Assembly: GCF_003432075.1 (NCBI RefSeq)
Contig: NZ_QWBU01000006.1
Location: 186,001 to 250,000 of the forward strand
Direction: 5' to 3'
From: Shinella sp. WSJ-2
GTDB lineage: Bacteria; Pseudomonadota; Alphaproteobacteria; Rhizobiales; Rhizobiaceae
Length of the DNA: 64,000 nucleotides
Shown here: positions 6,916-22,768 of the stretch, piece by piece
How the letters are laid out: each line of letters starts with the position of its first letter
How positions within the stretch are numbered: position 1 is the stretch's first letter
Program-made: the position numbers and the translations under genes
The notes under the pieces: model-generated
What the model was told of the DNA's origin: nothing
The model's database searches: none
The model's input: the letters and a program-made list of their open reading frames with translations, nothing else

Positions 6916-8406
6916 TCATTCCACCTGATGGGCCATGGCGGCAAGCAGCGCCGCCTCGCTCAATTCCCTGCGCGGCAAGGTCGCGACCGACGTGCCGTCG
7001 CTGAGCACGGTGACACGGTCGGCGGCGGCGAGAAGCTCTTCCAGTTCGGAAGAGATCATCAGCACGCTCAGCCCGTCGTCGGCGAGGCTGCGCAGAAGCT
7101 TGAGGATTTGGGATTTCGCGCCGATATCGATCCCACGGGTCGGCTCGTCAATGATGAGGACGCGCGGATCGGTGGCGAGCCAGCGGGCAAGCAGCACCTT
7201 CTGCTGGTTGCCGCCCGACAGTTCCTTGATCGGCTGGTCGGGCGAGGCGCATTTGACGCCGAGCGCGCGAATGTACTTCGTAACAATCTCGTCCTGCCTG
7301 GCGCGGTCGACGATGCCGGCCTTTTTCAGCTTCGGCAGCAGGGCAAGCGTCATGTTCTCGCGGATGCTCATGTCGGGCACGATGCCATCGATCTTGCGGT
7401 CCTCGGAAACGAGGCCGATGCCGTCGGCAATCGCATCCGCCGGCTCGCGATAGGCGCGCGCACGACCATCCATGGTTATGGTACCGCTCTGCATCCGGTC
7501 GGCGCCGAAGATCAGGCGGGCCGTTTCCGTGCGGCCGGAACCAAGCAGGCCGGCAAGGCCCGAAATCTCGCCTTCGCGCACATTCAGGCTGACATCGCGC
7601 ACGCGCACACCCGCGCCGGCCTTGTCGACGGCAAGGCGGACAGGGCGCTCGGGCACATCCTGATCGGGCGCCATCGCCTGGAAGGCGGCGAGTTCCTTGC
7701 CAAGCATGTGGCGCACCAGCGCCATCTTGGGCATGTCGGCCATCGGGCTTTTCGCAACCGTCTGGCCATCCCGCATGATCGTGACGCGATCGCAGATCGC
7801 ATAGAGTTCGTCGAGCCGGTGGCCGATGAAGATGACGGCGACACCGGAGCGTTTCAGCGTGCGGATCGTTTCGAAGAGAACGGCGACCTCGCGCTCATCG
7901 AGCGAGGACGTCGGCTCGTCCATGATGACGAGGCGGGCGTTCTGCGTGACGGCGCGGGCGATCGCCACCATCTGCCGTGTCGCGGCATCGAAATGCGCGA
8001 CGGGACGGTCGGCGTCGATGGCAAGGTTGAAGGTCTGCAAAACGGCCGCCGCACCGCGCCGCATGGCGGCATGGTCGATCATGCCGAAGCGCTTCGGCTC
8101 ACGCGAGAGGTAGATGTTCTCCGCCACCGAACGCTGCGGCGCGAGGTTGATTTCCTGGTAGATCGTCGCGATGCCGGCGCTTTGCGCTTCCGCCGGCATG
8201 GTGAAATCGACGGGCTTGCCATCAAAGGTGATGTCGCCCGCATCCCGGCGATAGACACCGGTCAGGATCTTGATGAGCGTCGATTTGCCGGCGCCATTCT
8301 GGCCGACAAGCGCCATGACTTCCGCAGGCTCGACCTCGAGCGAGGCGGATTTCAGCGCGGCGACGCCGGCAAATGCCTTGGAAATGCCCTGCATGGACAA
8401 GAGCAT
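6916..8406 (-). CDS. ytfR: Sugar ABC transporter ATPase with two nucleotide-binding domains, YtfR-like
   Basis: A 496-residue tandem ATPase of the RbsA/MglA/YtfR class. The first domain has Walker A GQNGAGKST near residue 35 and a degenerate signature (FDAATRQMVAIARA) before VIMDEPTSSLD. The second has a divergent P-loop (GLLGSGRTET) but a full signature LSGGNQQKVLLARW and Walker B LIIDEPTRGID. This asymmetry is normal for the family. It would power import of the sugar captured by the upstream binding protein. Expression is probably lower than that of the binding-protein gene because a strong terminator-like hairpin lies between them (8481-8515). Confidence 0.87.
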   Translation of the reverse strand: MLLSMQGISKAFAGVAALKSASLEVEPAEVMALVGQNGAGKSTLIKILTGVYRRDAGDITFDGKPVDFTMPAEAQSAGIATIYQEINLAPQRSVAENIYLSREPKRFGMIDHAAMRRGAAAVLQTFNLAIDADRPVAHFDAATRQMVAIARAVTQNARLVIMDEPTSSLDEREVAVLFETIRTLKRSGVAVIFIGHRLDELYAICDRVTIMRDGQTVAKSPMADMPKMALVRHMLGKELAAFQAMAPDQDVPERPVRLAVDKAGAGVRVRDVSLNVREGEISGLAGLLGSGRTETARLIFGADRMQSGTITMDGRARAYREPADAIADGIGLVSEDRKIDGIVPDMSIRENMTLALLPKLKKAGIVDRARQDEIVTKYIRALGVKCASPDQPIKELSGGNQQKVLLARWLATDPRVLIIDEPTRGIDIGAKSQILKLLRSLADDGLSVLMISSELEELLAAADRVTVLSDGTSVATLPRRELSEAALLAAMAHQVE

Positions 8407-8480
8407 CGGTTTCCTCCTCTCCGCCCTTCGGGACGGCCTCTCAAGCCTACACCCGAACGAACCAAAGATCAGGCCCGTTC

Positions 8481-8515
8481 AAAAAACGGCCGAGACGGTT
8501 TTGCCGCCCCGGCCG
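8481..8515 (-). terminator. Rho-independent terminator inside the ytf-like operon
   Basis: On the minus strand a 12-bp stem (complement of CGGCCGAGACGG at 8487-8498 pairing with 8504-8515, two G-U pairs) with a 5-nt loop is followed by six T residues (complement of 8481-8486). It lies just after the binding-protein stop codon and before the ATPase gene, so it probably acts as a partial terminator favouring binding-protein expression. Confidence 0.8.
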
Positions 8516-8536
8516 CACAGTGCTTGGGAGATGCGA

Positions 8537-9517
8537 TCAGTAGGCGTTCGCGAGTTCGGCCGCCGCGTTGGACGCGTCGTAGAACTTGTCTTCGTTGACG
8601 AGGTTCGGCTCGATGGCTTCGCCCTTGGCGTAGCGCTGCATCGTCTCGAAGGCCTTGGGCCCGAAGCGCGGGTTGCACTCGACGACCGCCGCGATCTTGC
8701 CGTCGACCACCAGCTGGACGGCTTCCTTGCCGCCATCGATGGAGAGCACGAGCACATCCTTGCCCGGTACCTTGCCGGCCGCTTCCAGCGCCGCGATGGC
8801 GCCGATCGCCATTTCGTCGTTGTGGGCGTAGATGATATCGGCATCCGGGTGCGCCTGAAGCAGCGCTTCGGCGACCTGGCGACCCTTGTCTCGGGCGAAG
8901 TCGCCGGTCTGCGAGGCGACGATCTCGAAGCCGCCGGCGGCCTGGATCGCTTCATCGAAGCCCTTTTTGCGGTCGTTGGCCGGCGACGAGCCGGTGGTGC
9001 CTTCGAGTTCGATGATCTTCGACTTGCCGTTGGCGTTCTTCGCCAGCCATTCGGCGACGCGCTTGCCTTCCTCGACGAAGTTCGAGCCGATGAAGGTCAG
9101 GTAGTCCTCGCCGGCCTTGGCGAGCGACGGATCGACCGAGCGGTCGAGCAGGATGACCGGGATGCCAGCTTTCTTGGCGGCCATGACGGCGGGGATCAGC
9201 GGCTTTTCTTCACGCGGTGCGAGGAAGATGACGTCGACGCCCTGGGCGATCATCGAGTTGACGTCGGCGACCTGCTTGGCAGCGGAGCCGGCGGCATCCG
9301 TATAGACCAGCTGGTAGCCAAGCTTTTCTGCCTCGGCCTTCATGCTGTTGGTCTGGGCGATACGCCAGGGGTTGTTGGATTCGGTCTGCGCGAAACCGAC
9401 CTTGTAGGTGTCCTTCTGTGCCAGCTTCGGCACTTCGGCAATGGCGACGCCGGCGACGGCAAGCGCACCGATGGCCGTTGCCGCAAGCATGAGGGTGCGA
9501 CGGGAAATTGTGGTCAT
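8537..9517 (-). CDS. ytfQ: Periplasmic sugar-binding protein, YtfQ-like
   Basis: A 326-residue periplasmic binding protein of the Peripla_BP_4 family. The N-terminus carries SRRTLMLAATAIGALAVAG, a Tat/Sec-like signal with an Arg-Arg pair, then mature sequence. Characteristic YtfQ stretches are present: VGFAQTESNNPWR, AQGVDVIFLAPREE, PVILLDRSVD, ELEGTTGSSPANDRKKGF, YAHNDEMAIGAI. E. coli YtfQ binds galactofuranose, and the matching gene order supports a furanose ligand, which is inference. ATG 9517 is preceded by GGGAGGAG; the longer frame adds a non-signal stretch and was rejected. First gene of the leftward operon, divergent from the LacI regulator. Confidence 0.85.
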   Translation of the reverse strand: MTTISRRTLMLAATAIGALAVAGVAIAEVPKLAQKDTYKVGFAQTESNNPWRIAQTNSMKAEAEKLGYQLVYTDAAGSAAKQVADVNSMIAQGVDVIFLAPREEKPLIPAVMAAKKAGIPVILLDRSVDPSLAKAGEDYLTFIGSNFVEEGKRVAEWLAKNANGKSKIIELEGTTGSSPANDRKKGFDEAIQAAGGFEIVASQTGDFARDKGRQVAEALLQAHPDADIIYAHNDEMAIGAIAALEAAGKVPGKDVLVLSIDGGKEAVQLVVDGKIAAVVECNPRFGPKAFETMQRYAKGEAIEPNLVNEDKFYDASNAAAELANAY

Positions 9518-9591
9518 GAGCGGGTTCTCCTCCCAGGTTCTAGCCGGTGCTCCTCTACCGGACGTGAGCAAATTCCTGCTTCACATGTGCA

Positions 9592-9620
9592 AATCTTGCG
9601 CTAATAATATGAGCAGTCAA
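9592..9620 (-). promoter_or_regulatory. Putative promoter of the ytf-like operon
   Basis: Reading leftward, TTGACT (complement of 9615-9620) and AAGATT (complement of 9592-9597) are 17 bp apart. The spacer carries one of three TGAGCA motifs in this divergent region (9565-9570, 9610-9615 with its flanking AT, 9633-9638), which could be LacI-family regulator contacts. Confidence 0.4.
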
Positions 9621-9692
9621 GAGCCAAAATTATGAGCACTTGCAAAAAATCCGCGTGCAGTGCAAAGCACGTCGAGGGGTGAGGAACGACGC

Positions 9693-10772
9693 ATGGCCAG
9701 GGGAAACGGGCGCAATACAGACAAAGAAGGCGGCGGACGCCCGACAATGACGGACATCGCACGCATTGCCGGTGTTTCCCAGTCCAGTGTGTCGCTCGTG
9801 CTCAATGAGATGTCCGGCTCGCGCATTTCACCGGAAACGCAGCAGAAGGTGCGCGAGGCTGCTCATAAAATAGGTTATAAATTACCTGCGACCCGCAGCC
9901 CGGTCGCCGCCGCCCCCACGGTCGAGAAGGATACAATCGCCTTCATCGTCGATGAAATCTCCACCAGCCCGCATCCGGTGGTGAGCCTCGATGGTATCCG
10001 TGACTATGCCTTCGAGCAGGGGCTTCTGGTCTCCGCCCATGCCACCCGCTCCAATCCGGACCTCGAAGAGGCCGTTCTGCGCTCCGTGCTGCGTGATCCC
10101 TCGATTGCCGGCGTCATCTATGCGACGATCTTCACGCGAAAAGTCTCCGTTCCCAAGGCATTGAAGTCCGTTCCGACGGTGCTGCTCAACTGCTACGGCG
10201 AGCCGCGCCAGCATGTGGCGATCGTGCCGGGCGAGGTGGCGGGTGGCTTTACCGCGACGGCGCATCTGACGGCGCTTGGCCACAAGCGCATCGGTTTCAT
10301 CAATGGCGAGCCGTGGATGGATGCGGCGATGGATCGTCTGAAAGGCTACAAGCAGGCGCTTGCCACCGCCGACATCGCTTTCGACGAAAGCTTGGTGCGC
10401 GACGGAGACTGGCTGCCGCTGCGCGGCTATGAGGCGGGTCTCGACCTGCTCTCCATGGACAATCCACCCACCGCCATCTTCTGCGGCAACGACCTGATGG
10501 CGATCGGCGTGATGGAGGCGGCGCAGGAGAAGGGACTTCGCGTGCCGCAGGATGTCTCCGTCATGGGCTACGACGACCAGGAACTCGCCCGCTACACCCA
10601 TCCGCCGCTCTCGACGCTGGTGCTGCCCAACTACGAGATGGGCCAGAAGGCTGCCGAAATTCTGATCGACATGGCGATCCACGGCAAGCAGACGCGCGCT
10701 ATGACCATCAAGGTCGATGGCCCGCTGGTCGTACGCGACACGACAGCGGGGCTGCGCTCCGCGCGCGCCTGA
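9693..10772 (+). CDS. LacI-family transcriptional regulator
   Basis: A 359-residue LacI/GalR repressor. The N-terminal helix-turn-helix is classic ([20 protein letters not shown], about residues 20-40) with the hinge helix region after it, followed by a periplasmic-binding-protein-like effector domain (about residues 80-345) containing [12 protein letters not shown] and [16 protein letters not shown]. It is divergent from the ytfQ-like gene across a 175-bp region and most likely controls that operon with a sugar-derived effector. The start at ATG 9693 has GTGAGGA upstream; the in-frame ATG at 9660 lacks one and is less likely. Confidence 0.88.
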
Positions 10773-10887
10773 GGCGGCCGAACCTGTCTTTTTGCAAGAT
10801 TTCCCTTTGACATGCCGGCGCGGTTGCTTGATTTCAGCCGATATTGCCCGACATGGTGTGCGAGCCGATGCCGCGAGACAGGGACCG

Positions 10888-11397
10888 TTGAAAAGCACTA
10901 GGAAAGACAAGGCGCCGCGGCCGAATAAGCCGAAAACCCTGCTGCAACAGCTTGCCGCCAAGCCGGAAAAGCTGTTTTCCGGGGCGTTTCGTCAGCAATA
11001 TGCCGCCTTGTGTTTTCGTTTCCTACCTGAGGCCGCCGGCATCGAAATCCTTGTCGTGACCTCGCGCGACAGCGGGCGCTGGATCATCCCCAAGGGCTGG
11101 CCGATGAAGGGCAGGAAACCCTACGAGGCCGCCGCGATCGAAGCCGTCCAGGAGGCCGGGGTTTCCGGAAAAGTCCGCAAGAAGCCGGTTGGCAGCTACA
11201 CCTATCTGAAGCTCCTTGATGACGGCGACGTCGTGCCCTGCATCGTCGACGTCTTCCAGATTGAAGTCACCGAGACCGCTGGAAAATTCAAGGAGAAGGG
11301 CGAACGCATCCTTGCCTGGGTCAGCCCGGACGAGGCGGCGCGGCGCGTGCGCGAGATTGAACTGAAATCGCTGCTGGTGGAATTTGTGCCGCGGTGA
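10888..11397 (+). CDS. Nudix hydrolase
   Basis: About 169 residues with the Nudix fold: IIPKGWPMKGRKPYEAAAIEA followed by VQEAGVSGKV marks the Nudix box, the metal-binding loop of enzymes that cleave nucleoside diphosphates linked to another moiety. The box is non-canonical (Ile where the REUXEE arginine usually sits, and Arg or Lys in place of the first Glu), a form seen in diphosphoinositol-polyphosphate-like branches. The start is uncertain: TTG 10888 follows GACAGGG, GTG 10858 lacks a ribosome-binding site, and the longest frame overlaps the LacI gene. Monocistronic. Substrate unknown. Confidence 0.72.
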   Translation: MKSTRKDKAPRPNKPKTLLQQLAAKPEKLFSGAFRQQYAALCFRFLPEAAGIEILVVTSRDSGRWIIPKGWPMKGRKPYEAAAIEAVQEAGVSGKVRKKPVGSYTYLKLLDDGDVVPCIVDVFQIEVTETAGKFKEKGERILAWVSPDEAARRVREIELKSLLVEFVPR

Positions 11398-11499
11398 CTT
11401 TATTCGGGTGCTATGCGTGTCTGGCCGGGCCGAATATTTTGATGCTGTGGACCTGCATTGAGGATATCTGAAACGTCCTGATAGCGTGAGGCCGGGGCC

Positions 11500-12522
11500 T
11501 TGATCGAGTTGCGACCGGAGATGCGCGCCATTTTTTCCATCCGCATAGCAGGCACGGGGCACGCAGTGCCGACTAAGGTGGTTCTGTCCGAGGCGCTAGA
11601 CCGACGGCTGGGATTTCCTGCCGGTCATCTGGAAAGGCTTTCGGGCGTGCGCAGCCGGCATGTCTGCGAGGCGGAAGACCAGATCGGCCTTGCCGTGGCC
11701 GCTGCCCGGCTCGCCATGGAAAGGGCCGCCGTTACTTCCGGGGATATCGACCTGGTGCTCGGCGCCTGCGGCATTCCCTACCAGACCCTGCCGTCAACGG
11801 CGCCGCTCGTGATGCGCGAGCTCAGCATTCCCGACGGTGCGGCTGCGGCTTTCGACGTCAATGCGACCTGTCTTAGCTTCCTGTCGGCCCTTGAACTGGC
11901 TGCCGGCCGTATCGCCGCCGGGCAGTCCCGCACCGCACTCGTCTTCTCCTCGGAAATCGCCTCGCGGGCGCTGCCCTGGAATGACCAGCCGGATGTCGCG
12001 GCCCTGTTCGGTGACGGCGCGGCCGCCGTCGTGCTGACGGCGGCGCCGGAAGGGGCGGGCGCTATCCGCGCGAGCCTCATGCGCACCTATCCTTCAGCCT
12101 ATGGGGCCTGTGAGATCGGCGCCGGCGGCACGCGCTTCGATTTCGTGCGCGAAGCGGCGGAATTTGCCGCCCATTCCGTCTTCCGCATGGACGGCAAGGA
12201 GCTCTTCCGCGTCACGCACCGGCATTTCCCCCGCTTCGTCGATGATCTTCTGGCCGCCGCCGGATGGACGCCCGCCGATGTCGATCTCGTCGTGCCGCAC
12301 CAGGCAAGTCCGCTGGCGCTGGAGCACATGATCGAGCAGACGGGCATGCCCGGCGCGCGCGTGGTCAATATCGCGGCGCGGTTCGGCAATCAGATTGCGG
12401 CGTCCATTCCGACCGCGCTCGACATCGCCTGGACTGAGGGTCGGATCACCAGGGGAACGCGGCTTCTGCTGCTCGGCACCTCGGCCGGCGTTTCCTTCGG
12501 CGGCATGGCCATCGAGGTCTGA
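11500..12522 (+). CDS. Beta-ketoacyl-ACP synthase III-like condensing enzyme
   Basis: A 340-residue thiolase-fold enzyme of the FabH/OleA superfamily. The Cys-His-Asn triad is intact: Cys124 (VNATCLSF), His267 (VPHQAS) and Asn297 (RFGNQIA); the C-terminal GTSAGVSFGG loop is also conserved. Such enzymes join an acyl thioester to malonyl-ACP or another acyl-CoA. It is the first gene of a six-gene coupled operon. A housekeeping FabH would normally sit in a fatty-acid context, so a dedicated pathway role is inferred. The start is a TTG at 11500 preceded by GTGAGG; ATG 11521 is an alternative that is poorly spaced from GGAG. Confidence 0.83.
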   Translation: MIELRPEMRAIFSIRIAGTGHAVPTKVVLSEALDRRLGFPAGHLERLSGVRSRHVCEAEDQIGLAVAAARLAMERAAVTSGDIDLVLGACGIPYQTLPSTAPLVMRELSIPDGAAAAFDVNATCLSFLSALELAAGRIAAGQSRTALVFSSEIASRALPWNDQPDVAALFGDGAAAVVLTAAPEGAGAIRASLMRTYPSAYGACEIGAGGTRFDFVREAAEFAAHSVFRMDGKELFRVTHRHFPRFVDDLLAAAGWTPADVDLVVPHQASPLALEHMIEQTGMPGARVVNIAARFGNQIAASIPTALDIAWTEGRITRGTRLLLLGTSAGVSFGGMAIEV

Positions 12523-12527
12523 TCGCG

Positions 12528-13508
12528 ATGCGTGTCCTGGTCACCGGAGCGACGGGGTTTCTGGGTGGGAGACTGATCCGGCATCTTGGCGCCCGCGGGC
12601 TCGATGCCATCGGCCTCGGACGCGATGAAGCCCGTTGCCGCGCGCTTCAGGATGCGGGTTTCACGATTGTCCGCGCCGACCTTTCCCGTTCCGTCCTGCA
12701 TCTGGCCGGCGTTATCGGCCGGGTGGACGCCGTCGTCCATTGCGCCGCGCTCTCGGCCCCCTGGGGTCGGCTTGCCGCCTTCCGCGCCGCCAATGTGGAG
12801 GGCACGCGACATGCGCTCGATCTGGCCGAAGCGCTCGGCGCCCGCCGGTTCGTCAATATCTCCTCGCCGACGGTCTATTTCGAGATGAAGGACAAGATCG
12901 CCGTCGCCGAGACCGCATCCCTGCCGCGCCCGATCAATGCCTATGCCCGGACCAAGGCGGAGGCCGAGCAGCTGGTTCTGGCGCGGGCAAAACTCGGCCC
13001 GGTCAACCTGCGGCCCCGAGGGATTTATGGCGCGGGAGAGGAAACGCTGCTGCCACGCCTCATCGCCGCCGCCCGCCGCGGGCCTCTACCGCTGCTGCGC
13101 TCCAGCGCCGCGGCCATCGATCTCACCCATGTCGATGACGTGGTAACAGCGATCGAGGCGGCGCTGAGCGCCGATCCTGCGGTTGAAGGCGAGACGTTCA
13201 ACATTTCGGGCGGCGAAATGGTGCCTATATGCGATCTCGTCGAGCGCGTTTGCTCGGCGCTTTCCGTGCCGCTGCGCTGGAAGCCAGTGCCGTTCTATCC
13301 GGCGCTCCTGCTGGCGCGTTTTGCGGAAATGGCGAGCCTTGCCCGCCCTGTTCCGAAAGAGCCTCTGGTTACGCCCTATACGCTCGGCCTCTTCGCGTTT
13401 CGGCAAAGTCTCGATATCTCCAAGGCGCAGCGGAGGCTTGGCTGGCAACCCCGGATTTCGCTTGAGCACGGTCTGGCCATGACGCTGGACAGAAGGCGCG
13501 CGCCATGA
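12528..13508 (+). CDS. NAD(P)-dependent epimerase/reductase (extended SDR, 3-beta-HSD/OleD-like)
   Basis: A 326-residue extended short-chain dehydrogenase. The N-terminal Rossmann motif TGATGFLGG (residues 6-14) binds NAD(P), and the catalytic Tyr139-X3-Lys143 (NAYARTK) is preceded by a Ser in ISSPTVY. The overall pattern (RPRGIYGAGEETLLPRL, LTHVDDVV) is that of 3-beta-hydroxysteroid-dehydrogenase-like and OleD-type reductases that act on beta-keto or beta-hydroxy acyl products. It follows the ketoacyl synthase by 5 bp, so reduction of the condensation product is the natural inference. It overlaps the next gene by 4 bp. Confidence 0.83.
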   Translation: MRVLVTGATGFLGGRLIRHLGARGLDAIGLGRDEARCRALQDAGFTIVRADLSRSVLHLAGVIGRVDAVVHCAALSAPWGRLAAFRAANVEGTRHALDLAEALGARRFVNISSPTVYFEMKDKIAVAETASLPRPINAYARTKAEAEQLVLARAKLGPVNLRPRGIYGAGEETLLPRLIAAARRGPLPLLRSSAAAIDLTHVDDVVTAIEAALSADPAVEGETFNISGGEMVPICDLVERVCSALSVPLRWKPVPFYPALLLARFAEMASLARPVPKEPLVTPYTLGLFAFRQSLDISKAQRRLGWQPRISLEHGLAMTLDRRRAP

Positions 13509-14326
13509 AGCCGATTTTTGCCAACAGCGCTTTCGTCTTGGCGCCGGAACGGCTGTTCCTGCGCGGTGGAGCCTGGCGGCGTGTGCCGTTGAAGGTGCGC
13601 TACGGCTTCTTCCGGCACCCGACGGCCGGCGCCGTGCTGATCGACACGGGCTATGGTCCGAGCGTAACGCAGGGGCCGCGCAGTCTGACGCTGCGTCTCT
13701 ACAACAGGGTCCTCGGCCCCAGTCTGGTGGCCGACGGCCAACCCGAACCCGTTCTGCGGCGGCTCGGCCTGAAGGTCGAGGATGTCGGCACCATCATCGT
13801 CACGCATTTCCACGCCGATCACGTTGCGGGTCTCAATCTCTTCCCGAAAGCGCGGATCGTCGCGAAGGCTGAGGTGCTCCGGACAATCCTGAAGCAGTCC
13901 GCGTACAAGAACCTGCGCCATGGTGTTTTCTCCGAGCTTCTGCCGGCCGATCTCGCTTCGCGGGTGGAGGATGTCGATGGCGTTGCTGTACGCGAGGCTC
14001 CGCTTGGGCTCGGAAGAGGCCGCGATCTCTTCGGCGATGGCAGCGTGCTCGCCATGAATCTACCCGGCCATGCCGAAGGCCATTTCGGTCTCTGCTTCGC
14101 CAACCTGCCCGTGCCGCTTCTCTATGCAGTGGACGCGCAATGGTGCGCCGAAGCGCTGGAGGAGGGCCGCCGCCCCGGCTTCCCGGCGAGTCTGATCGCC
14201 CACGATCCTAATGCGCTTGCCGAGAGCGCCCGCCGTGTCCTGGCATTCCGTCAGGCGGGTGGTGCGGTGCTGCTGTGCCATGATCCGGCCGAGAGCCGCT
14301 ACGATCTTGCCGCGGAGGTGCCATGA
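13505..14326 (+). CDS. MBL-fold metallo-hydrolase
   Basis: A 273-residue metallo-beta-lactamase-fold enzyme. The zinc motif THFHADH (His101, His103, Asp105, His106) is intact, with further metal-ligand candidates in NLPGHAEGH and a C-terminal LLCHDPAE. It starts with an ATG overlapping the SDR stop by 4 bp (ATGA) and ends in the same way with the next gene, showing translational coupling. Family members hydrolyse lactones, thioesters or phosphoesters; a thioester or lactone in this acyl pathway is an inference. No signal peptide, so cytosolic. Confidence 0.8.
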   Translation: MKPIFANSAFVLAPERLFLRGGAWRRVPLKVRYGFFRHPTAGAVLIDTGYGPSVTQGPRSLTLRLYNRVLGPSLVADGQPEPVLRRLGLKVEDVGTIIVTHFHADHVAGLNLFPKARIVAKAEVLRTILKQSAYKNLRHGVFSELLPADLASRVEDVDGVAVREAPLGLGRGRDLFGDGSVLAMNLPGHAEGHFGLCFANLPVPLLYAVDAQWCAEALEEGRRPGFPASLIAHDPNALAESARRVLAFRQAGGAVLLCHDPAESRYDLAAEVP

Positions 14327-15594
14327 CCGGCCGGCTCCGCATCGCCTCGGCCTTCGCGCAAACGCGGTGGACCTGCCGTGCCGGCCATTCGCGCGCTGCA
14401 TTCGAACGGGGACAGGCCGCAGCCCTTCGCCGCTGGCTGGAACAGGACCTGTCCGGCGTTGATTTCTATCGCAACGCGCCGCCTCGGCTGGAGGCGCTGC
14501 CGATCATCGACAAGGCCGTCGTCATGGCGGATTTCGCGGCCTTCAACCGGGGACGGATTACGGCGGAAGCGGGCTGGCGGGCGTTCGAAACGACCGGCAG
14601 ATGGGGTGACATCAGCATCGGCGCCAGCACGGGCACCAGCGGCAACCGCGCGCTGTATGCCATTACATCAGCGGAACAAGACCGCTGGCTCGGCACGATC
14701 CTCGCCAAGGCGGTGCCGCGGTTTCTCGTCGAGCCCGAGCGCGTTGCCGTCATCCTGCCCCAGAATTCCGCACTCTACGATGGCGCCCGCCAGTCGCGCC
14801 TGCTGCGGCTGGAGTTCTTCGACCTGCGGCAGGGCCTCGAAAGCTGGATGCCCGCGCTGGAGACCTTCGCGCCGACCACCATCGTCGCGCCACCCCGGGT
14901 CCTGCGCCATCTGGCGGAAAATTCCGAAAGGCTGAAGCCGCGACGGCTTTTCGCCGGCGCCGAGACGTTGGACCCGGTGGACCGCACCGTCATCGAAGCG
15001 CGTTTCGGCAAAAAGCTCGGGCAGATCTATATGGCGACGGAGGGGCTTTTCGCGGTTTCCTGCGCCAAGGGCAGGCTTCATCTGGCGGAGGATGCCAATG
15101 TTTTCGAGTTTGAGCCTGTCGCGGATGGATTGGTCGCCCCGCTGGTGACGGGTTTCCGCCGCCGCTTCCAGATCATGGCGCGCTACCGCATGAACGATCT
15201 CCTGCGCCTGTCGGATTGCTCCTGCGCCTGCGGTTCTCCTCTGCGGGTGGTTGACGAGATCGTCGGACGGCTGGACGACGTCTTTGTCTTTGAACGCGGC
15301 GATGGCGCGCGGCTTCTGGTGACGCCCGACGTGATGCGCAATGCCGTGCTCGACGCCGCCCGCGCGATCACCGATTTCCGTATCATCCGGGAAGCGCATG
15401 GCGGTATAATCCTCGTGCTGGAGCCGGGCCTTCCAGACGAGAGTGCCATGGCGGCGCGGGATGCGCTCGGCAGGGCGTTTTCGCAGCGCGGGCTCGGCCC
15501 GGAGATTGTCGTGCGGCGCGAGGCAATGGCCTTCGAGGTGCGTCGCAAGCTGCGGCGGGTGGAAAACCGCTATCGGCCGGAGGGCGGGGCATGA
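14323..15594 (+). CDS. PaaK/F390-synthetase-like adenylate-forming enzyme
   Basis: A 423-residue protein resembling phenylacetate-CoA ligase and coenzyme F390 synthetase-related proteins. The glycine/threonine-rich adenylate loop is visible ([11 protein letters not shown], about residue 107), with YMATEGLF as the second ATP motif, a Cys-rich DCSCACGS segment and GRLDDVFVF, typical of the C-terminal hinge. These enzymes activate carboxylates as acyl-AMP. At 423 residues it is close to PaaK length. Within the cluster it could activate an acid for transfer or ring closure. Coupled by 4-bp overlaps on both sides. Substrate unknown. Confidence 0.75.
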
Positions 15595-16712
15595 TCGTGC
15601 TGCCCCAGCAGGACGAGCGGGTGGGCAATGCGCCGGAAGCGGTTCGCCGCTTCGTCGCGCTTTTCAACGCCCATCCCGTGGCCGACCTCATCGGCAATCT
15701 GGTGACAGTGGTCGAATCCGTCGAGGTTGAAGGGCGGCATTTCCCGATCACGCTCAACGACCGGCGGGATGCGCCGACCTGCTATATCTGCTGCCCGAGC
15801 AGTGCCTATGTCGACTATGCCATCGATGAGACCCGCAATTTTGCTGCCGCCCCCATGGTGCGCGGCGCGGCGCGCGCCCTCATCCGCGCCTGCCGTCCGT
15901 TGGTGGCGGCAAGCGGGCTCGACCAGCAGGTGCAGGTCAACAACTGGCTGCTGTCCACCAATCCGGTGCCGCTGATTTCGCCCTCGGCGGCGGCCCTGCT
16001 GATGGCGCAGCTGCGCGAAAAATATCCCGACAGGGCGATTGTCATCCGCTCGCTCAACGAGACGGCGGACGGCCCTTCCATGGCCAGTCTCAAGGCGGCG
16101 GGGTTTCGCTTTCTTGCCGCGCGGCGCGTCTATCTGTTCTCTGGCGAGGGCGCGCGGAAAACGCAGAACCAGTCATATGACCGCACGCTTCTCTCGCGCA
16201 CGCCCTATCGCTTCGCATGCGGTGAGAGCTTTACGGAGGCGGACTACGTCCGCGCCGCCGAACTCTACAAGCTGCTCTATCTCGACAAATACACGCCGCT
16301 GAACCCGCACTACTCCGCCCTCTATATCCGCGAAATGCATCGGCACGGCCTGTTCGACCTGATCGGCTTCCGGGATGGCAACGGGCGGCTCGCCGCAGTT
16401 TCAGGCTTCTTCGCCAATGGCCGCACGCTGACGCAGCCGATCGTCGGTTATGACACGAGCCTTCCGCTGAAGGACGGGCTCTACCGGCTGGTGATGGCGA
16501 CGGGGCAGAGTATTGCGGCCGAACGCGGTCTGTTCTTCAACATGAGCGCCGGCGCCGGCCGATTTAAAAGCCTGCGCGGCGCAGAACCCGTTATCGAGTA
16601 CAACGCCGTCTATGTCGCCCATCTTCCGCTGAAACAGCGCCTCGCGGTGCGGCTCATGGAGGGGCTGTTGCGGCGCATCGGCATTCCGCTTCTGGAGGCA
16701 TTCGATCTATGA
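15591..16712 (+). CDS. Uncharacterised protein with a GNAT-like acyltransferase fold
   Basis: A 373-residue soluble protein that I do not recognise as a named family. The region [20 protein letters not shown] followed by [12 protein letters not shown] and [13 protein letters not shown] resembles the central strands and helix of a GNAT or FemAB-like acyltransferase, and the end [17 protein letters not shown] fits the acceptor side. The N-terminal half carries RSLNE and [12 protein letters not shown], which could be a second, degenerate copy. It sits inside the coupled operon, so an acyl- or aminoacyl-transfer step is plausible but unproven. Confidence 0.6.
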
Positions 16713-17698
16713 ACTCTTCTCCCGACGAATGGCAGGCGGTGGCAATTGCGGCAACGATCGGCAAGGCGCCGCGGCGCATCCTGCTGTCCGGCCTGCCGGT
16801 CGTGTTGTTTCGCAGCGGCGCGGAGATCGCCGCGTTGCACGACCGCTGCCCGCACCGGCATGTGGAACTGTCGAAGGGCAAGGTCGAAAACGGCGAGATC
16901 GAATGTCCCTATCACGGCTGGCGCTTCAACGCGGCCGGTGCCTGCACGGCCATTCCAGGACTGACGGGCGCGGTGCCCGGCTATCGGGTGCCTAGGCTCA
17001 GGACGGTAGTGAAGGATGGCGTCGTCTTCGTCGCGCGCGGCGAGCCGGAGGGCGAGCCTTATCTGCATTGCGCGGAGGGGCAGAAGATCATCATGAAGCT
17101 TGTGGAGAGCAGCACGCGCTCGACGCTGGTCGATACGGCCGAAAACATTCTCGACGCCACGCACACGCATTTCACTCACAAGGGGCTTCTGCGCGGCCTA
17201 AGCAGCGAGCGCCAGCGCGTTCGGGTCGACGTGTCGGGCGGTCCGGGCTGGATCGAAGCGTGTTACACCGGCGAAGAGCGTCAGCATGGCCTGATCAGCC
17301 GGCTGCTGGAGGGCGACCGGGTCAAGACGATCGGGCGTTTTCGCGCGCCCGGCATTGCGGAACTGGAATATTGGGGGGCGAAAGGGCTGGTGCTGGCCAC
17401 GACCTTCCATCTTCGGCAGGCCGCGGAAAACCAGGTGGACGGCATCGGCTGCCTGATCGGCCCGCGCGGCGGCTTGCTTGACCACCTCAAATCCTATGCT
17501 TTCCGGCCGATGTTCCGCATCGCGCTGGAGCAGGACCGCCGGGTGCTGACCTCTGCGAGCCTTAACGCCGCCCATTGGCCGGAGGCCGCGCCAATCGTCG
17601 GCCCGCTGGATTTCCTGCGCCGCAGCATCGAGGCCATCATGGCCGGCACGCTGCCGCCTGTCGCAGAAAAGCCGGAGACCTTTTACATCGAACTTTGA
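16709..17698 (+). CDS. Rieske non-heme iron oxygenase, alpha-subunit type
   Basis: A 329-residue Rieske oxygenase. The [2Fe-2S] ligands are Cys47-X-His49 (CPHRH) and Cys66-X2-His69 (CPYHGW). The mononuclear iron site has the classic D-X2-H-X4-H in [12 protein letters not shown] (Asp149, His152, His157). These enzymes hydroxylate, desaturate or N-oxygenate small molecules and need a reductase, which is not encoded here. Length matches single-component oxygenases of the vanillate O-demethylase or cholesterol-desaturase type rather than large dioxygenases. Last gene of the operon; its 3' end overlaps the convergent ATP-grasp gene by 16 bp. Confidence 0.85.
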
Positions 17699-18858
17699 TC
17701 CGGCCCGTCCCATTCGATATCGCGGGTCGAGGCGCGTTGCAGCGAAATCCGGTGACGCAGCGCCAGCGCGGCGATCTCACTGAGCGCCCGCCACTGCGCC
17801 CGTTTCGGAGCCGGATCATCCGGCCAGTCGAGAAGCTCGTCGGCGCCCCTCAAGTTGCGTAGAAAACTGCCGATCGCACCCGAGCGCAACGCGGCCGGCA
17901 GTCCGTAGAGCCAGAGTGCGAGGCGGACTGTCTGCGGGCGAACGACATCGGGTCCGACGGCTCCTTCGCCGGCGGCGATCGCTGCCGTGAAGGCCTGCGG
18001 GTTCCGGAAGAAATGCAGGCCGCTCGTGGCGCGTGGATTGCACTCGAGCGGCAGCACGGTGCCGTCAGGCCGGCGGATCAGGTCGAAGGACAACTGGCCG
18101 GTCCAGCAGGTGCCCGCGGCGAAGCGGCTGACAAAAGCCTTAGCGGCGCCATTCTCGACCGGCACGAAGTAGATGCCGGCCCCTTTGCCGGCGCGATAGA
18201 CCGAACGGTAGAGCGAAAAAGCTTGCAGGCGGCCTTCATTGGCGATGGCGTAGGCGCTGAGCTCCTCGCCTTCGAGGAACTCCTGGGCGACCCAGGGCGC
18301 CTGCGGCGTCGGGGCGAACGCATCGAGGTCTTCCGGCCGGGGACGAAGCAGGACGCGGCTTGCGAAACGCGACCAGGCCGGCTTGAAGACTAGCTTTGAT
18401 GCTGACCCGCTGATAGCGGCGAGGTCGGCCCGATCCCTGATGAGCGTCGTTTGCGGTGCAGCGAGGCCGAGGTCTTTGCACAGTTCGATGAAATCGAACT
18501 TGTTGTGCGCGCGGGCAAGCAGATCGCTATCCGGGGCGAAAAGCCTTGCCGCCGGATGCCGCTCGCGCCAGACGGCGGCGAGGTAAAACACCTCCTCGCA
18601 GGTCGGCAGGACCAGCGAGATGCCTTCCCGTTTCACCAGAGCCGCGACGGCATCGCCATAGGCTTGCGGCTCGAAGCGCGGCGGCGGCAGGCGGACATAA
18701 CGGGTGCAGGCGCTGCTGGCGGCGGAGAGGGGAAAGGCCGGCGTATCGGCCAGCACGACGCGCCAGCCCGCGCCGTGGAACAGCCGCGCCAGATGCAGCG
18801 CGACGGGTGCGCGTGCGCCGGTAATCAGGACGGATTGGGACGGGGTGGAGGCTGGCAT
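17683..18858 (-). CDS. ATP-grasp domain ligase (CarB-like fold)
   Basis: A 391-residue protein with an N-terminal Rossmann-like pre-ATP-grasp domain (SVLITGARAPVALHLARL) and an ATP-grasp core: KLVFKPAWSRFASRV is the first nucleotide-binding strand, WVAQEFLEGEELSAYAIA the hinge and LPLECNPRATSGLHFF the metal-binding loop with Glu and Asn. Such ligases couple carboxylates to amines or other nucleophiles with ATP. Its stop overlaps the 3' end of the Rieske gene on the other strand, and the conserved proximity suggests it serves the same pathway. The C-terminal 100 residues have no recognisable domain. Substrate unknown. Confidence 0.75.
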   Translation of the reverse strand: MPASTPSQSVLITGARAPVALHLARLFHGAGWRVVLADTPAFPLSAASSACTRYVRLPPPRFEPQAYGDAVAALVKREGISLVLPTCEEVFYLAAVWRERHPAARLFAPDSDLLARAHNKFDFIELCKDLGLAAPQTTLIRDRADLAAISGSASKLVFKPAWSRFASRVLLRPRPEDLDAFAPTPQAPWVAQEFLEGEELSAYAIANEGRLQAFSLYRSVYRAGKGAGIYFVPVENGAAKAFVSRFAAGTCWTGQLSFDLIRRPDGTVLPLECNPRATSGLHFFRNPQAFTAAIAAGEGAVGPDVVRPQTVRLALWLYGLPAALRSGAIGSFLRNLRGADELLDWPDDPAPKRAQWRALSEIAALALRHRISLQRASTRDIEWDGPDQSSM

Positions 18859-18910
18859 CGGGTCCGGTTTTCTAAGGGTTCTGTTCTATAGACGATTCTG
18901 AAGTACCGGA

Positions 18911-19813
18911 TCACTCCACCGCCGCGCGCAAGGCCCGCGTGATCTCGTCGGCGAACATGGAGGCGGCGAGCGCCCGGCCGCGCTTTTCGCGCTGGACGAG
19001 GGAGAGCACATTCTTGCCGAAGGTGCGGTCGCGGATCTGCACATAGGTGAGCAGCCCGTTGCGCTGCTCCTCGGCGATGTCGAACTTGCTCAAGAAGGCG
19101 ATGCTGTCGCCGCTGGCGGCGAGGCATTTCATGGCCTCGATCGAATTGGTCAGGAAGGCCGGCTCCACGGCAAGCCCGGCCTCCGAAAAGGCATCGGCGA
19201 CGATGCCGTGGATCAGCATCGACTTGTCGGCGAAGATCAGCGGATAGGGTTCGCAGAAGGAGAGCGGCAGGGTCTCCATGCCGGCGAGCGGATGTTCCGG
19301 CGAGACGACGGCGCCGAGCCGCGTGTCCATCTTCCACAGCGTTTCGAGCTGCGGCAGGACGGGGAGGTTGAAGGCGAGGCCGAGATCCGCCTCGCCGTCG
19401 ATAACGGCCTGCACGATATCGCGGACGAACATCACGCGGATGGAGATTTTCAGCCGCGGATGGCGGGCGCAGAAGCTGGCCGCCGCCTTCGGCACGATGC
19501 CGCCGGCCAGGCCGTTCATGGTGGCGATGATCACCTCGCCGCTCTGCAAAGTCTTGATGTCGCGGATTTCCGCCTCGACCTGGCTGTATTCCTTGATCGT
19601 GCGGCGCACATGGGCGAGCAGAATTTCGCCTGCCGGCGTGAGCCGCAGGCCGCGCGGCAGGCGCTCGAACAGCGGCTCGCCGATCGCCTCCTCCAATTGC
19701 AGCACATGCTTGTTGATAGCCGACGGCGCCACGTTCAGCCGCTCGCCGGCTGCGCGGATCGAACCCAGCCGCGCCACCTCGTCGATATAGCGCAGCACGC
19801 GGGAGTGCAGCAT
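18911..19813 (-). CDS. LysR-family transcriptional regulator
   Basis: A 300-residue LysR regulator: N-terminal winged helix (ARLGSIRAAGERLNVAPSAINKHVLQLE) and a C-terminal effector domain. ATG 19813 is preceded by a near-perfect AAGGAGG; the annotated longer frame begins 5 codons earlier. It is divergent from the adenine-deaminase-like gene and a perfect 14-bp palindrome (19839-19852) lies 26 bp upstream of its start, so it most likely controls that operon, with a purine-related or amidohydrolase product as co-inducer (inference). Confidence 0.85.
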   Translation of the reverse strand: MLHSRVLRYIDEVARLGSIRAAGERLNVAPSAINKHVLQLEEAIGEPLFERLPRGLRLTPAGEILLAHVRRTIKEYSQVEAEIRDIKTLQSGEVIIATMNGLAGGIVPKAAASFCARHPRLKISIRVMFVRDIVQAVIDGEADLGLAFNLPVLPQLETLWKMDTRLGAVVSPEHPLAGMETLPLSFCEPYPLIFADKSMLIHGIVADAFSEAGLAVEPAFLTNSIEAMKCLAASGDSIAFLSKFDIAEEQRNGLLTYVQIRDRTFGKNVLSLVQREKRGRALAASMFADEITRALRAAVE

Positions 19814-19838
19814 GTTCGCCTCCTTCAAGTGTTCTCGA

Positions 19839-19852
19839 AAAGCGTACGCTTT
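19839..19852. promoter_or_regulatory. Perfect palindrome, candidate LysR operator
   Basis: AAAGCGTACGCTTT is a perfect 14-bp palindrome in the 179-bp region between the divergent LysR gene and the deaminase-like gene. Its position close to the regulator start is typical for an autoregulatory LysR recognition site. Confidence 0.5.
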
Positions 19853-19992
19853 GCGCGTAAAATACTGCTTTTCGGAAACGGTTCAATGGCGTCTTATGGT
19901 TTCGAAAGGCGCGGAGGCAGGAGCTGCGCTTGCGGGGGAAGCCCCGAACGATTGCCGGCCCGGCGACGGGCCGAAGAGACCGGAGGACCATC

Positions 19993-21732
19993 ATGAACCA
20001 ACATGTCACCATCGCGGAGGCCGCGCACTACGACAAGGTGCGGGCGATCTTCGCCGTCCTGAACGGCGAGCGGGAGGCGGACCTGCTCCTGAAGAACCTG
20101 AACATCCTCGATGTCCACGGCGAGACCGTCTATCACGGCTCGATCCTTGTCTATGACAAGCGCATCATCGCGCTCAACCCGGACGAGAGCATCCTGAAGG
20201 TGAAGGAAGTCTTCGACGGCGAAGGGCTCTATGCCATTCCCGGCCTGATCGACGCCCATATCCATTTCGAATCCCAGCTCGCCCATCCGACGGCGCTGGC
20301 CGAGGCCATGGTGCCCTGCGGCACGACGACGATCTATTCCGAATGCCTCGATCTCCTGAGTGCGGCCGGCGAAGAGGGCGTCGAGGCGGCGCAGAAACTG
20401 TTCAAGGACTACGACAAGCTGCCCTATCGCCTCTATGCCTTCGCGCCGGGTAAGAAGACGGCGGCTAATGTCACCGAGGCGGTACTGAAGATGGAGCCGG
20501 TGATCGGGCTCGGCGAGTTCGAGCACTTCACCTATTCCTCGGGCAATGACGACGATTTCCGCAAGGCCGCCTGGGTTCGCGCGCAGGGCGGCTTCATGAA
20601 CGGTCACTGGGGCGTCACCGCGCTCTCCGACATGATCCTCAACTACCTGCCGGCCATCGGCTGCTCGAACAACCATGACGTCTGGAACGAGAAGGACCTT
20701 GAAAAGAGCGTCCGCTACGGCTTCCCGACGCATATCAAGTTCGGCGTGGGCAGCGCCGAGGTGATCAAGGTGCTGCTGCGCGCCATCGTCGACCGCAAAT
20801 GGCCGACGGACAATTTCATGCTCTGCACGGACAATATCTCCATCGAGCGCCTGCTGACCATGGGCCATATGGACTGGATCATCTCGCTCTGCGCCGAGAT
20901 GGGCATCAATCCGATCCACGCGATCAAGATGGCGACGCTCAACACGGCGCGCTCCTTCCACATGGAAGACAAGCTCGGCTCGCTGACGCCCGGCCGCTTC
21001 GCCGACATCGTGCTGACGGACAGCCTGTCGAAGATCAATCCGCGTTATGTCTTCAAGGACGGCGAACTGGTCGCCAAGGACCGCAAGCTTTTGACGAATG
21101 CCGAGATCGACTATTCCGGCATGTGCAAGAAGGGCGTTCCCGGCCTCGCCGATCTGACGGCCGACCAGCTCAATATCGTGCCGCTCGAAATCTCCGAGGA
21201 CGGCAGCAAGGCGAAGGTCTATCTGTTCGACGTCTATGGCCGCGGCCATGCGAAGTTCTACCAGGAGGTCTGGGTGCCGCTGCGCGACGGCAAGGTGGTG
21301 CCGGAGGTCGACGGCGTCAAATATTCGCGCCTCTCGGTCATCCAGCGTTACGCCGATGGCAAGCGCCATATCGTCAACGGCCTGTTCAAGGGCGTGTCGA
21401 TCGATCGCGGCGCTGTCGCGACCTTCTGGCCGGCGCCGAAACCCTACTTCGTCGTGGTGGGCGAGGAGAGCGCGGAAATGTGCCACTGCGTCAAGCAGGT
21501 CGACACCTATGCCGGCGCGTGCATCGTCACCGAAAACAAGGTGGAGAAGGCGGTGATGCCGCTCGATATCTACGGCGTCATGGCGAACATGACCGTTTCC
21601 GAGTTGACGGCGGCGGCCGGGTCGATCGATGCGGCGCTCGCCGCGATGGGCAACCGCAACGAGGGTGAGCCCGTGGTCAACAAGCTGCTCAGCCTGTTCA
21701 TCTCGCTGCACCGCTTCCGGTTAATGCACTGA
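19993..21732 (+). CDS. Adenine-deaminase-family amidohydrolase (atypical)
   Basis: A 579-residue metal-dependent amidohydrolase matching adenine deaminase in length and domain order: N-terminal beta domain, TIM barrel beginning GLIDAHIHFES (His-X-His metal ligands), GLGEFEH glutamate, NGHWG, NNHDVW, and CTDNIS aspartate, then a C-terminal domain. In standard adenine deaminases the barrel reads SDHE and the loop TDDR; here those are NNHD and TDNI, so the metal ligands persist but the general pattern is altered. Substrate may be adenine or another cyclic amide. ATG 19993 has GGAGGA upstream; the longer frame is rejected. Followed by a membrane protein gene. Confidence 0.78.
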   Translation: MNQHVTIAEAAHYDKVRAIFAVLNGEREADLLLKNLNILDVHGETVYHGSILVYDKRIIALNPDESILKVKEVFDGEGLYAIPGLIDAHIHFESQLAHPTALAEAMVPCGTTTIYSECLDLLSAAGEEGVEAAQKLFKDYDKLPYRLYAFAPGKKTAANVTEAVLKMEPVIGLGEFEHFTYSSGNDDDFRKAAWVRAQGGFMNGHWGVTALSDMILNYLPAIGCSNNHDVWNEKDLEKSVRYGFPTHIKFGVGSAEVIKVLLRAIVDRKWPTDNFMLCTDNISIERLLTMGHMDWIISLCAEMGINPIHAIKMATLNTARSFHMEDKLGSLTPGRFADIVLTDSLSKINPRYVFKDGELVAKDRKLLTNAEIDYSGMCKKGVPGLADLTADQLNIVPLEISEDGSKAKVYLFDVYGRGHAKFYQEVWVPLRDGKVVPEVDGVKYSRLSVIQRYADGKRHIVNGLFKGVSIDRGAVATFWPAPKPYFVVVGEESAEMCHCVKQVDTYAGACIVTENKVEKAVMPLDIYGVMANMTVSELTAAAGSIDAALAAMGNRNEGEPVVNKLLSLFISLHRFRLMH

Positions 21733-21743
21733 CGGAAAGAACC

Positions 21744-21776
21744 GTACCGGCAGGCGCAGGAGGCGCCTGCCGGTAC
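21744..21776 (+). other. Strong intercistronic stem-loop
   Basis: A perfect 14-bp stem (21744-21757 with 21763-21776) and a 5-nt loop follow the deaminase-like gene. No T-tract follows, so it is more likely an mRNA processing or stability element between the two genes than a full terminator. Confidence 0.6.
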
Positions 21777-21891
21777 CCAAAAGTTACGGATTGACCGGGA
21801 GAAGGAGTTCCGGGACATCCGCGAAAACGTTTTTCAGCGCGGCAGGCCGGGAGTGACGGGAGGCTCCGCGCAACGCCCTTGGGAGGAAACC

Positions 21892-22602
21892 ATGGCACAT
21901 CATGCGGCGGAAGCCGAAATCGTCGATACCGGCAGCCTGACGCGGCGCTGGATCATGTATGTCTTGGGGATCTACATCCTGACCTTCGGGGTCAGCCTAG
22001 CGATCCGCGCCGGCGTCGGCATCTCGCCGCAGAGCAGCCTGACGCGCACCATGACGCTGGTCTATCCGCCGCTGAGCCAGGGCACGTACAATTTCATGCT
22101 CGAGCTGATCATGCTCGCGCTGACCTATTTCGTGCTGCCGAAGGATTTCAAGCTCAAGAATTTCGCCTCGCTCATCCCGGCCTTCGTGCTGGCGGTGTTC
22201 CTCGATCTCAACCTCAAGCTCACCGAGTTCATCGTGCTGGAGGAGTATTCCTACCGGGTGGCACTGCTGGTCTTTGCCGATGCGGCCCTCGCGTTCGGTC
22301 TCTTCCTGATGATCCGCGCCAATCTCGTGCTGATGCCGATCGACATGTTCGTCAACACGATCTTCAAGCGCACCGGCTGGAAGTGGGGCAACATCAAGAC
22401 GGGCTTCGACTGCACGCTGCTCGTGACGTCGGCGCTGATCGGCCTCGGCTTCCTCGGTGAAATCCAGTTCATCCGCGAGGGCACGATTATCAATGCCATC
22501 CTCATCGGTCAGTACATCAGGCTCTATTTCTTCCTCTACAAGAAGATGAGCGCCGGGAAGAACGCACCCGAGACCGGCGCGCTCGAACCGGCATCGAAAT
22601 AG
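21892..22602 (+). CDS. YczE/YitT-like integral membrane protein
   Basis: A 236-residue polytopic protein with five or six predicted membrane spans beginning RRWIMYVLGIYILTFGVSLAIRAGVGISP. The early GVGISPQSS pattern and later LVLMPIDMF repeat fit the YczE/YyaS/YitT family (DUF6198-type), proteins of unknown or proposed transport function. ATG 21892 has GGGAGGAAAC upstream. It probably shares a transcript with the preceding amidohydrolase and might import its substrate or export its product, which is an inference from gene order only. A strong terminator follows. Confidence 0.75.
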   Translation: MAHHAAEAEIVDTGSLTRRWIMYVLGIYILTFGVSLAIRAGVGISPQSSLTRTMTLVYPPLSQGTYNFMLELIMLALTYFVLPKDFKLKNFASLIPAFVLAVFLDLNLKLTEFIVLEEYSYRVALLVFADAALAFGLFLMIRANLVLMPIDMFVNTIFKRTGWKWGNIKTGFDCTLLVTSALIGLGFLGEIQFIREGTIINAILIGQYIRLYFFLYKKMSAGKNAPETGALEPASK

Positions 22603-22626
22603 ACGACAGGACTTTCAGAACACCAA

Positions 22627-22664: not shown

Positions 22665-22768
22665 GGGATAACCAGCCAATTCGCTGGCCACACGGCGGAT
22701 TCCCGCTTATGCCGGATGGATTGAAAGAGCTTGCGGGCGCAGGTGCATCCGGTGAAACTACTCCCATC

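Follow-up and report, generated by a model that had tools for sequence, protein, structure and literature searches.

A seven-gene operon in Shinella combining a recurrent four-enzyme core with an exchangeable, putative amino-acid module

A tightly packed seven-gene block

We analyzed a 64,000-nucleotide stretch of the genome of Shinella sp. WSJ-2 (contig NZ_QWBU01000006.1, positions 186,001 to 250,000), which we call the window, and within it a block of seven tightly packed open reading frames (ORFs) at 11521-18858, six on the plus strand and one convergent on the minus strand. The plus-strand genes encode a condensing enzyme of the beta-ketoacyl-acyl carrier protein synthase (KAS) III superfamily (11521..12522; Pfam ACP_syn_III and ACP_syn_III_C), an extended short-chain dehydrogenase/reductase (SDR; 12528..13508), a metallo-beta-lactamase (MBL)-fold hydrolase that resembles lactonases and thioesterases (13505..14326; Pfam Lactamase_B), a PaaK-like adenylate-forming enzyme related to F390 synthetases (the F390-like enzyme; 14323..15594), a transferase with a tandem GCN5-related N-acetyltransferase (GNAT) fold like that of Fem and MprF proteins (the 15591 protein; 15591..16712), and a Rieske non-haem iron oxygenase with a putative tailoring role (16709..17698; Pfam Rieske). 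The minus-strand gene encodes a PRK06849-like ATP-grasp ligase (17683..18858).

The KAS gene ends at 12522 and the SDR gene starts at 12528, leaving a 5-bp gap. Four 4-bp overlaps follow (13505-13508, 14323-14326, 15591-15594 and 16709-16712), and the Rieske and ATP-grasp genes, ending at 17698 and 17683, overlap by 16 bp tail to tail. An initial annotation, made from the letters of this DNA, had described six coupled plus-strand genes and a converging ATP-grasp gene, and its coordinates, overlaps and gap were confirmed. It had also placed the start of the block at 11500. An in-frame TTG does lie there, but the KAS gene more likely starts with the ATG at 11521, since this is the codon at which the conserved reading of loci L014 and L016 of two relatives begins.

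The seven genes recur as a unit

The seven-gene block is not a chance arrangement, given its co-occurrence in relatives and the low ratios of nonsynonymous to synonymous substitution rates (dN/dS) of its genes. All seven genes are present in 26 of 30 named relatives' loci, among these one (L027) whose KAS gene is cut by a contig end. Three of the other four loci (L038, L043 and L047) are cut by contig ends. The last, from Yoonia (L049), has six genes: no Rieske gene was found within the stretch examined, and a gene for a Na/Ca exchanger lies beyond its GNAT gene. The loci come from genera such as Shinella, Roseibium, Stappia, Mesorhizobium, Maritimibacter, Jannaschia, Octadecabacter and Bradyrhizobium. 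The initial annotation had suggested a conserved small-molecule or modified-lipid pathway, and this recurrence in genera of Rhizobiales and Rhodobacterales supports the suggestion. The dN/dS values of the seven genes in two comparisons within Shinella (0.083-0.194 against L014 and 0.149-0.229 against L016) indicate purifying selection. Within the genus, 5 of 21 genomes have the 15591 protein; at the level of the order, 8 of 397 genomes gave a match, two of them only at expectation values (E) of 6e-4 to 9e-4.

In Shinella, the cluster is a discrete block in different surroundings. Nucleotide similarity to two other Shinella loci is confined to 11495-18834 (L016) and 11511-18844 (L017), so that the conserved block as a whole spans 11495..18844; when positions 5001-25000 of the window were compared with these 16-kb loci, no similarity of the flanks was detected at E 1e-10. 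The LacI-type and LysR-type regulator genes that flank the block in the window are not carried along with it in this comparison. In Shinella zoogloeoides, a gene for an 851-amino-acid protein with 24 ALTTAQ repeats (Pfam PF20080; L016:13132-15687) is found directly past the cluster's KAS gene.

A four-gene core with exchangeable add-ons

Across more distant bacteria, the genes for the KAS, SDR, MBL hydrolase and F390-like enzyme form a core, and the other genes are exchangeable add-ons. We surveyed 60 loci from Pseudomonadota, Bacillota and Fusobacterium, including some genomes twice (e.g., L014/L025, L015/L026 and L028/L108), with family models trained partly on the same loci. All four core genes are present in 55 of the 60 loci, and in 53 they are contiguous in the order KAS-SDR-MBL-PaaK. 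Four of the five incomplete cores lie at contig ends (L027, L038, L043 and L047), and the fifth is on a Pseudomonas amygdali megaplasmid, where only F390-like and ATP-grasp genes were found. The exceptions in order are Fusobacterium (SDR-MBL-PaaK-KAS) and Pseudomonas Leaf58, whose four genes are spread over about 10 kb. The core is also found on plasmids: 36 plasmid records match the F390-like protein, and among 16 that we inspected, a non-random choice from the upper 25, 15 have all four core genes and 13 have them contiguous in order. In one locus (L104:5853-6988), the SDR gene is broken over two reading frames, possibly through a frameshift or a sequencing error.

As a control, we considered the 30 hits with short loci from a phylum-wide search of 398 genomes for the F390-like enzyme; weaker hits without loci were left out. 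Genes for an SDR and an MBL hydrolase lie within about 1.5 kb of all ten hits that score at least 150 bits (TIGR02304-type), and longer stretches for nine of these ten also show the KAS gene, as the window does. By contrast, core partners lie beside none of the 20 generic PaaK homologues, which all score below 100 bits. The family models used here share the partial training mentioned above, which cannot create adjacency.

The add-ons vary among loci. In two Bradyrhizobium loci and a Rhizobium metagenome-assembled genome (MAG), the gene order is KAS-SDR-MBL-PaaK-ATPgrasp facing GNAT-Rieske. Because it lies inside this rearranged operon, the ATP-grasp gene belongs to the gene set, and it sits inside the core operon in other taxa as well: in Paenibacillus along with a GNAT gene, in Paraburkholderia along with a GNAT gene and a Rieske gene in two overlapping frames, and in Pontibacillus as the only add-on. 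Loci L103-L105 have ATP-grasp and Rieske genes without a GNAT gene. In Rhizobium (L086:9292-10365), Shinella oryzae (L096:9280-10359) and locus L110 (7472-8596), a gene for a DUF3419 protein, which we take to be of the BtaA family, replaces the ATP-grasp and Rieske genes between the core and the GNAT gene. A Deinococcus sp. QL22 plasmid carries overlapping ATP-grasp and GNAT genes (L134:5541-7798) with no core gene annotated beside them; this pair is therefore a module of its own. In Paracoccus and Ketogulonicigenium, a sulfotransferase gene and an upstream gene for a TetR-type regulator lie beside the core. The Rieske gene of Paraburkholderia sp. PREW-6R (L088:13501-14623), which is located 3' of the GNAT gene, is absent from the record's gene table and looks broken or mis-sequenced.

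Escherichia coli has a seven-gene version in which the core is joined by genes for a PAP2 protein, a fatty-acid hydroxylase of the sterol desaturase family and an acyl-CoA desaturase (L091:7140-14021; L133:3001-9882). In strain NRG 857C this version lies between narI and the tRNA-Tyr/purU region, and about one in eight complete E. coli genomes (672 of 5426) have it. The same add-ons, with one or more desaturases, accompany the core in L099 and L101. No Rieske gene was found in the core loci of E. coli, Paenibacillus or Pontibacillus.

The condensing enzyme

For the six proteins of the block that have a best NCBIfam model, this model scores below its own curated cut-off. The best model for the KAS is PRK07204 (294 bits; cut-off 402). 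Its nearest solved structures are 4v2p, which is titled a ketosynthase and which we take to be MxnB, and CorB (4yuc). The initial annotation regarded the catalytic residues of the KAS, SDR, MBL and Rieske proteins as intact, and we found them conserved in 56, 21, 21 and 18 aligned sequences, respectively (one Rieske residue, discussed below, nearly so). In the KAS, these residues are Cys124, His267 and Asn297, identical in all 56 core sequences, of which 53 are distinct.

In the same 56 core sequences, the position equivalent to the catalytic base of OleA, Glu117, is Leu in 39, Ile in 17 and Glu in none. In the three usable OleA sequences (L111, L112 and L114) it is Glu, which lies 26 residues before the Cys in L112; a fourth, L113, was left out of this comparison and of the tree. 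According to PMC4578411, MxnB and CorB carry Val at this position, and an acidic beta-ketoacyl donor is argued to make the catalytic base unnecessary. Most core KAS sequences also have a nucleophile motif like V-N-x-x-C-L-S-F, as in MxnB and CorB.

A maximum-likelihood tree of 40 sequences (30 core KAS, MxnB and CorB, five FabH-type and three OleA) places the core KAS with MxnB and CorB in one clade (support 98/97), apart from the FabH-type and OleA sequences. The OleA sequences are set apart with support 100/100, one of them (L112) being flagged by the tree program as a long branch. With the absent Glu and the separate OleA clade, OleA chemistry does not fit this KAS. What does fit is either the joining of two chains, with a beta-ketoacyl thioester as the partner, or a decarboxylative condensation of the FabH type. 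The enzyme belongs to the KAS III superfamily and not to the degradative thiolases. A search of a phage collection with the KAS gave 14 weak records.

The other core enzymes

The two top NCBIfam models for the SDR are both OleD-type, at 176.6 and 143.7 bits (cut-off 580 each; E 8e-52 and 7e-42). HpnA is next, at E 5e-27, and SdmB is among the weak matches. Residues Y139 and K143 are invariant in 21 sequences. The best model for the MBL hydrolase is AttM (60.5 bits; cut-off 390), and its closest solved relatives are an N-acyl-homoserine lactone (AHL) lactonase and 4-pyridoxolactonase; the metal ligands H101, H103, D105, H106, H189 and D210 are invariant in 21 sequences.

The F390-like enzyme scores 229.3 bits against TIGR02304, which is below the curated cut-off of 251.9, and relatives of the same family in genomes G265 (279 bits) and G141 (265.5 bits) pass it. 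The STG-type phosphate loop (S102 and G104-G107) is invariant in 21 sequences, as is K409, presumably the C-terminal catalytic Lys of adenylate-forming enzymes. There was no OleC or OleB model among the NCBIfam and Pfam matches of the cluster proteins. A transposon mutant of Pseudomonas syringae pv. actinidiae in a gene labelled coenzyme F390 synthetase appears in PMC9823363.

The add-on enzymes

The 15591 protein matches no Pfam or NCBIfam family at E 0.001, and 18 of 26 members of its family have a weak Acetyltransf_6 match. A sequence search of solved structures gave no credible relative. Its AlphaFold2 model (mean predicted local distance difference test, pLDDT, 89.6) has as best Foldseek matches Sbb17/Sba18, lysyl-phosphatidylglycerol synthase (L-PGS), alanyl-phosphatidylglycerol synthase, MprF and FemX, with E from 2e-10 (Sbb17) to 5e-7 (FemX) and TM-scores of 0.38-0.49 by query. 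Residue K326 was considered as a candidate counterpart of the catalytic Lys of FemX (K305) and DhpH-C (K329); F325-K326 is invariant in 26 sequences, but the pairs FK and YK are common in Acetyltransf_6. We also considered membership in the MprF/LPG-synthase family by profile, which is unsupported, as both hhalign comparisons were negative. Double-GNAT enzymes that depend on aminoacyl-tRNA occur in natural product pathways, according to PMC12945691.

For the ATP-grasp ligase, the best NCBIfam model is NF005315 (PRK06849; 343.8 bits against a cut-off of 406). The Mg-binding E-x-N motif is present as E272-C-N274-P-R, invariant in 25 sequences. A sequence search of solved structures gave no credible relative. 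With the structure model (pLDDT 91.1), PurK was the first Foldseek match and L-amino acid ligase and PylC were among the best 50, and these matches fit a carboxylate–amine ligation.

For the Rieske protein, the top NCBIfam match is to the 4beta-methylsterol monooxygenase SdmA (55.3 bits; cut-off 600), and the nearest solved relatives of the protein are SxtDIOX/SxtT, NdmA/NdmB and DdmC. The cluster residues C47, H49, C66 and H69, in the pattern C-x-H / C-x2-H, are invariant in 18 sequences. So are H152 and D276, which with H157 give a 2-His-1-Asp triad that we assume to be the iron ligands; H157 is replaced only in Roseibium (L028), by Tyr.

Genes around the cluster

According to the initial annotation, no carrier protein, exporter or reductase is encoded nearby. 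This held for the annotated genes adjoining the block, the part of the 64 kb that was scanned for them. In relatives, families resembling ABC transporters turned up beside the cluster in 6 and in 4 of 14 representative flanks, at varying positions. Comparison of these flanks revealed no extra family at a fixed position and no other candidate for a fixed eighth gene. Genes that probably encode a peptide ABC transporter and an M24-type peptidase lie beside the clusters of Roseibium (L028:1-5304) and Maritimibacter (L045 and L046, at about 13.2-20.7 kb).

A proposed pathway and its alternatives

The data show conserved co-occurrence, intact catalytic residues, purifying selection, protein families and folds, and the exchange of modules, and from them we infer substrates, a reaction order and a product. 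The KAS would link an acyl thioester through a carbon-carbon bond to another thioester, either beta-ketoacyl, as in MxnB and CorB, or malonyl, as in FabH, with substrates drawn from the cell's own pool of acyl carrier protein (ACP) and coenzyme A (CoA) thioesters. The SDR would reduce the new keto group, the MBL hydrolase would free the acid from its thioester or open a lactone, and the F390-like enzyme would activate the acid by converting it to an acyl-adenylate. Attachment of an amino acid or aminoacyl group would fall to the ATP-grasp ligase and the tandem-GNAT transferase, and the Rieske enzyme would hydroxylate, using general ferredoxin reductases.

In this proposal, the operon consists of a four-enzyme acyl core and an exchangeable amino-acid module. 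The lipid-type add-ons of E. coli-type loci (hydroxylases and desaturases) point to an acyl product, and the ATP-grasp and DUF3419 proteins, each of which travels with the GNAT protein, point to an amino-acid part. Since the core recurs in distant bacteria with different add-ons, its product is probably a small molecule or lipid built from a fatty acid. The constant part would thus build and activate an acyl group, to which the variable part would add amino-acid or lipid features. The genes of the window would most probably make a conjugate of an acyl group and an amino acid that the Rieske enzyme hydroxylates. We give about even odds to the view that the block is a biosynthetic operon dedicated to a hydroxylated metabolite or lipid of this acyl–amino acid type and probably spread by horizontal transfer.

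Several points weigh against this proposal. The PaaK-like and ATP-grasp enzymes both activate carboxylates, which makes their division of labor ambiguous. The KAS could equally catalyze a FabH-type condensation; MxnB and CorB are nested inside the core KAS group with only moderate support (89/81), and the tree carries the warning of a long OleA branch. The predicted link of the GNAT protein to aminoacyl-tRNA enzymes is one of fold only. Its Foldseek list also holds plain GNATs without assigned function and, lower down, glycine N-acyltransferase, and comparison with the LPG-synthase domain profile gave E 0.3 and, with seven of nine MprF sequences (L126 and L129 omitted), E 0.066 at a probability of 0.84%. 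Several core loci (e.g., L089, L093, L094 and L102) have no ATP-grasp, GNAT or Rieske gene within the stretch examined. Finally, a search for a clean empty site in Shinella was negative: in G014, the genome without the cluster in which a single contig carries both flanking regulators, the two are not neighbors.

The operon might be the same and only the role of the GNAT protein different: it might N-acylate an amino group, like OlsB in the synthesis of ornithine lipids, instead of using aminoacyl-tRNA. The protein is a GNAT by fold, with the weak Acetyltransf_6 matches described above, and its partner among enzymes of the amino-acid type can be either ATP-grasp or DUF3419. However, its best structural matches are aminoacyl-tRNA-dependent enzymes, and we regard N-acylation as a serious possibility that we nonetheless lean against. 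A catabolic operon, in which the Rieske, SDR, MBL, CoA-ligase-like and thiolase-fold enzymes degrade a sterol-like or aromatic substrate, seems very improbable. The SdmA and SdmB matches and the two regulators flanking the block could be read this way, but they are set against a condensing enzyme outside the degradative thiolases, regulators that do not move with the block, and the core loci mentioned above in which no Rieske gene was found.

Two further alternatives concern the chemistry of the core. The initial annotation drew an analogy with the Ole pathway, i.e., head-to-head condensation and reduction leading to a beta-lactone or olefin, which would here require the F390-like enzyme to replace OleC and the MBL hydrolase to replace OleB. 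The four core enzymes do correspond in kind to those of the Ole pathway and keep a fixed order, and the OleD resemblance of the SDR stands, although it is distant. The analogy fails for the condensing enzyme, which has Leu or Ile in place of the OleA Glu and groups with MxnB and CorB while OleA forms a separate clade; moreover, OleC and OleB models are not among the matches, and Ole chemistry offers no role for the amino-acid modules. We therefore consider an Ole-like pathway unlikely. The cluster might instead make a pyrone or lactone signal, where an MxnB-like KAS produces a lactone such as an alpha-pyrone, which is then modified by the SDR and the Rieske enzyme and opened or recycled by the MBL protein acting as a lactonase. 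This would agree with the position of the KAS in the clade of the pyrone-forming MxnB and CorB, with the absence of Glu in both (for MxnB and CorB, according to PMC4578411) and with the lactonases that are the closest solved relatives of the MBL protein. However, the ATP-grasp, adenylating and GNAT enzymes would be superfluous for pyrones. MxnB-type pyrones come from large polyketide synthase (PKS) lines, and here an SDR and an MBL hydrolase accompany nearly every copy of the core. A signal of this type is also improbable in our estimation.

Implications and relation to known systems

The present analysis adds to the initial annotation the four-gene core with its modules, the membership of the ATP-grasp ligase in the system, and the tandem-GNAT protein of Fem/MprF-like fold at 15591. 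A full-text search of a subset of the open-access literature found no description of the cluster, the core or the E. coli version, which is weak evidence that none has been published. Although each enzyme is of a known superfamily, the core may define a new pathway class. With somewhat less than even confidence, we suggest that it represents an unrecognized class of acyl-building cassette, found in at least three phyla. By exchanging an amino-acid module (ATP-grasp with tandem-GNAT, or DUF3419 with GNAT), a Rieske oxygenase or a lipid module (phosphatase, hydroxylase and desaturases), it would give rise to a range of new bacterial lipids or signals resembling lipids, one of them in about one in eight of the complete E. 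coli genomes searched. Genome-mining rules keyed to PKS, nonribosomal peptide synthetase (NRPS) or named families are expected to miss four such ordinary-looking enzymes. If the core builds a defined acyl product, this would explain hundreds of loci labelled only "F390 synthetase-related", with their neighbors, in bacteria ranging from Rhizobiales of the soil to E. coli. Module swapping in nature allows the chemistry to be read, in that what is constant would correspond to the acyl part and what changes to its decoration.

Among characterized enzymes, the core KAS is most like MxnB and CorB, the chain-joining ketosynthases of myxopyronin and corallopyronin, in structure, clade, nucleophile motif and absent Glu. 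It differs in its setting, an operon with SDR, MBL and F390-like genes, inside which no polyketide synthase gene was recognized. The cluster resembles the OleABCD system in combining a condensing enzyme, an OleD-like SDR, an adenylate former and a hydrolase, but its KAS is not OleA, its adenylate former is not OleC and its hydrolase is not OleB, and it has extra amino-acid and oxygenase modules. The F390 synthetase-related family, TIGR02304, has a name that assigns no function, and the window protein falls below its cut-off. With FemX, MprF and Sbb17, the 15591 protein has the tandem-GNAT fold in common, whereas profile comparison detected no relationship between its sequence and the LPG-synthase domain. 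Finally, the narI-purU operon of E. coli has an identical core order, and carries lipid-type add-ons instead of the ATP-grasp, GNAT and Rieske genes of the window.

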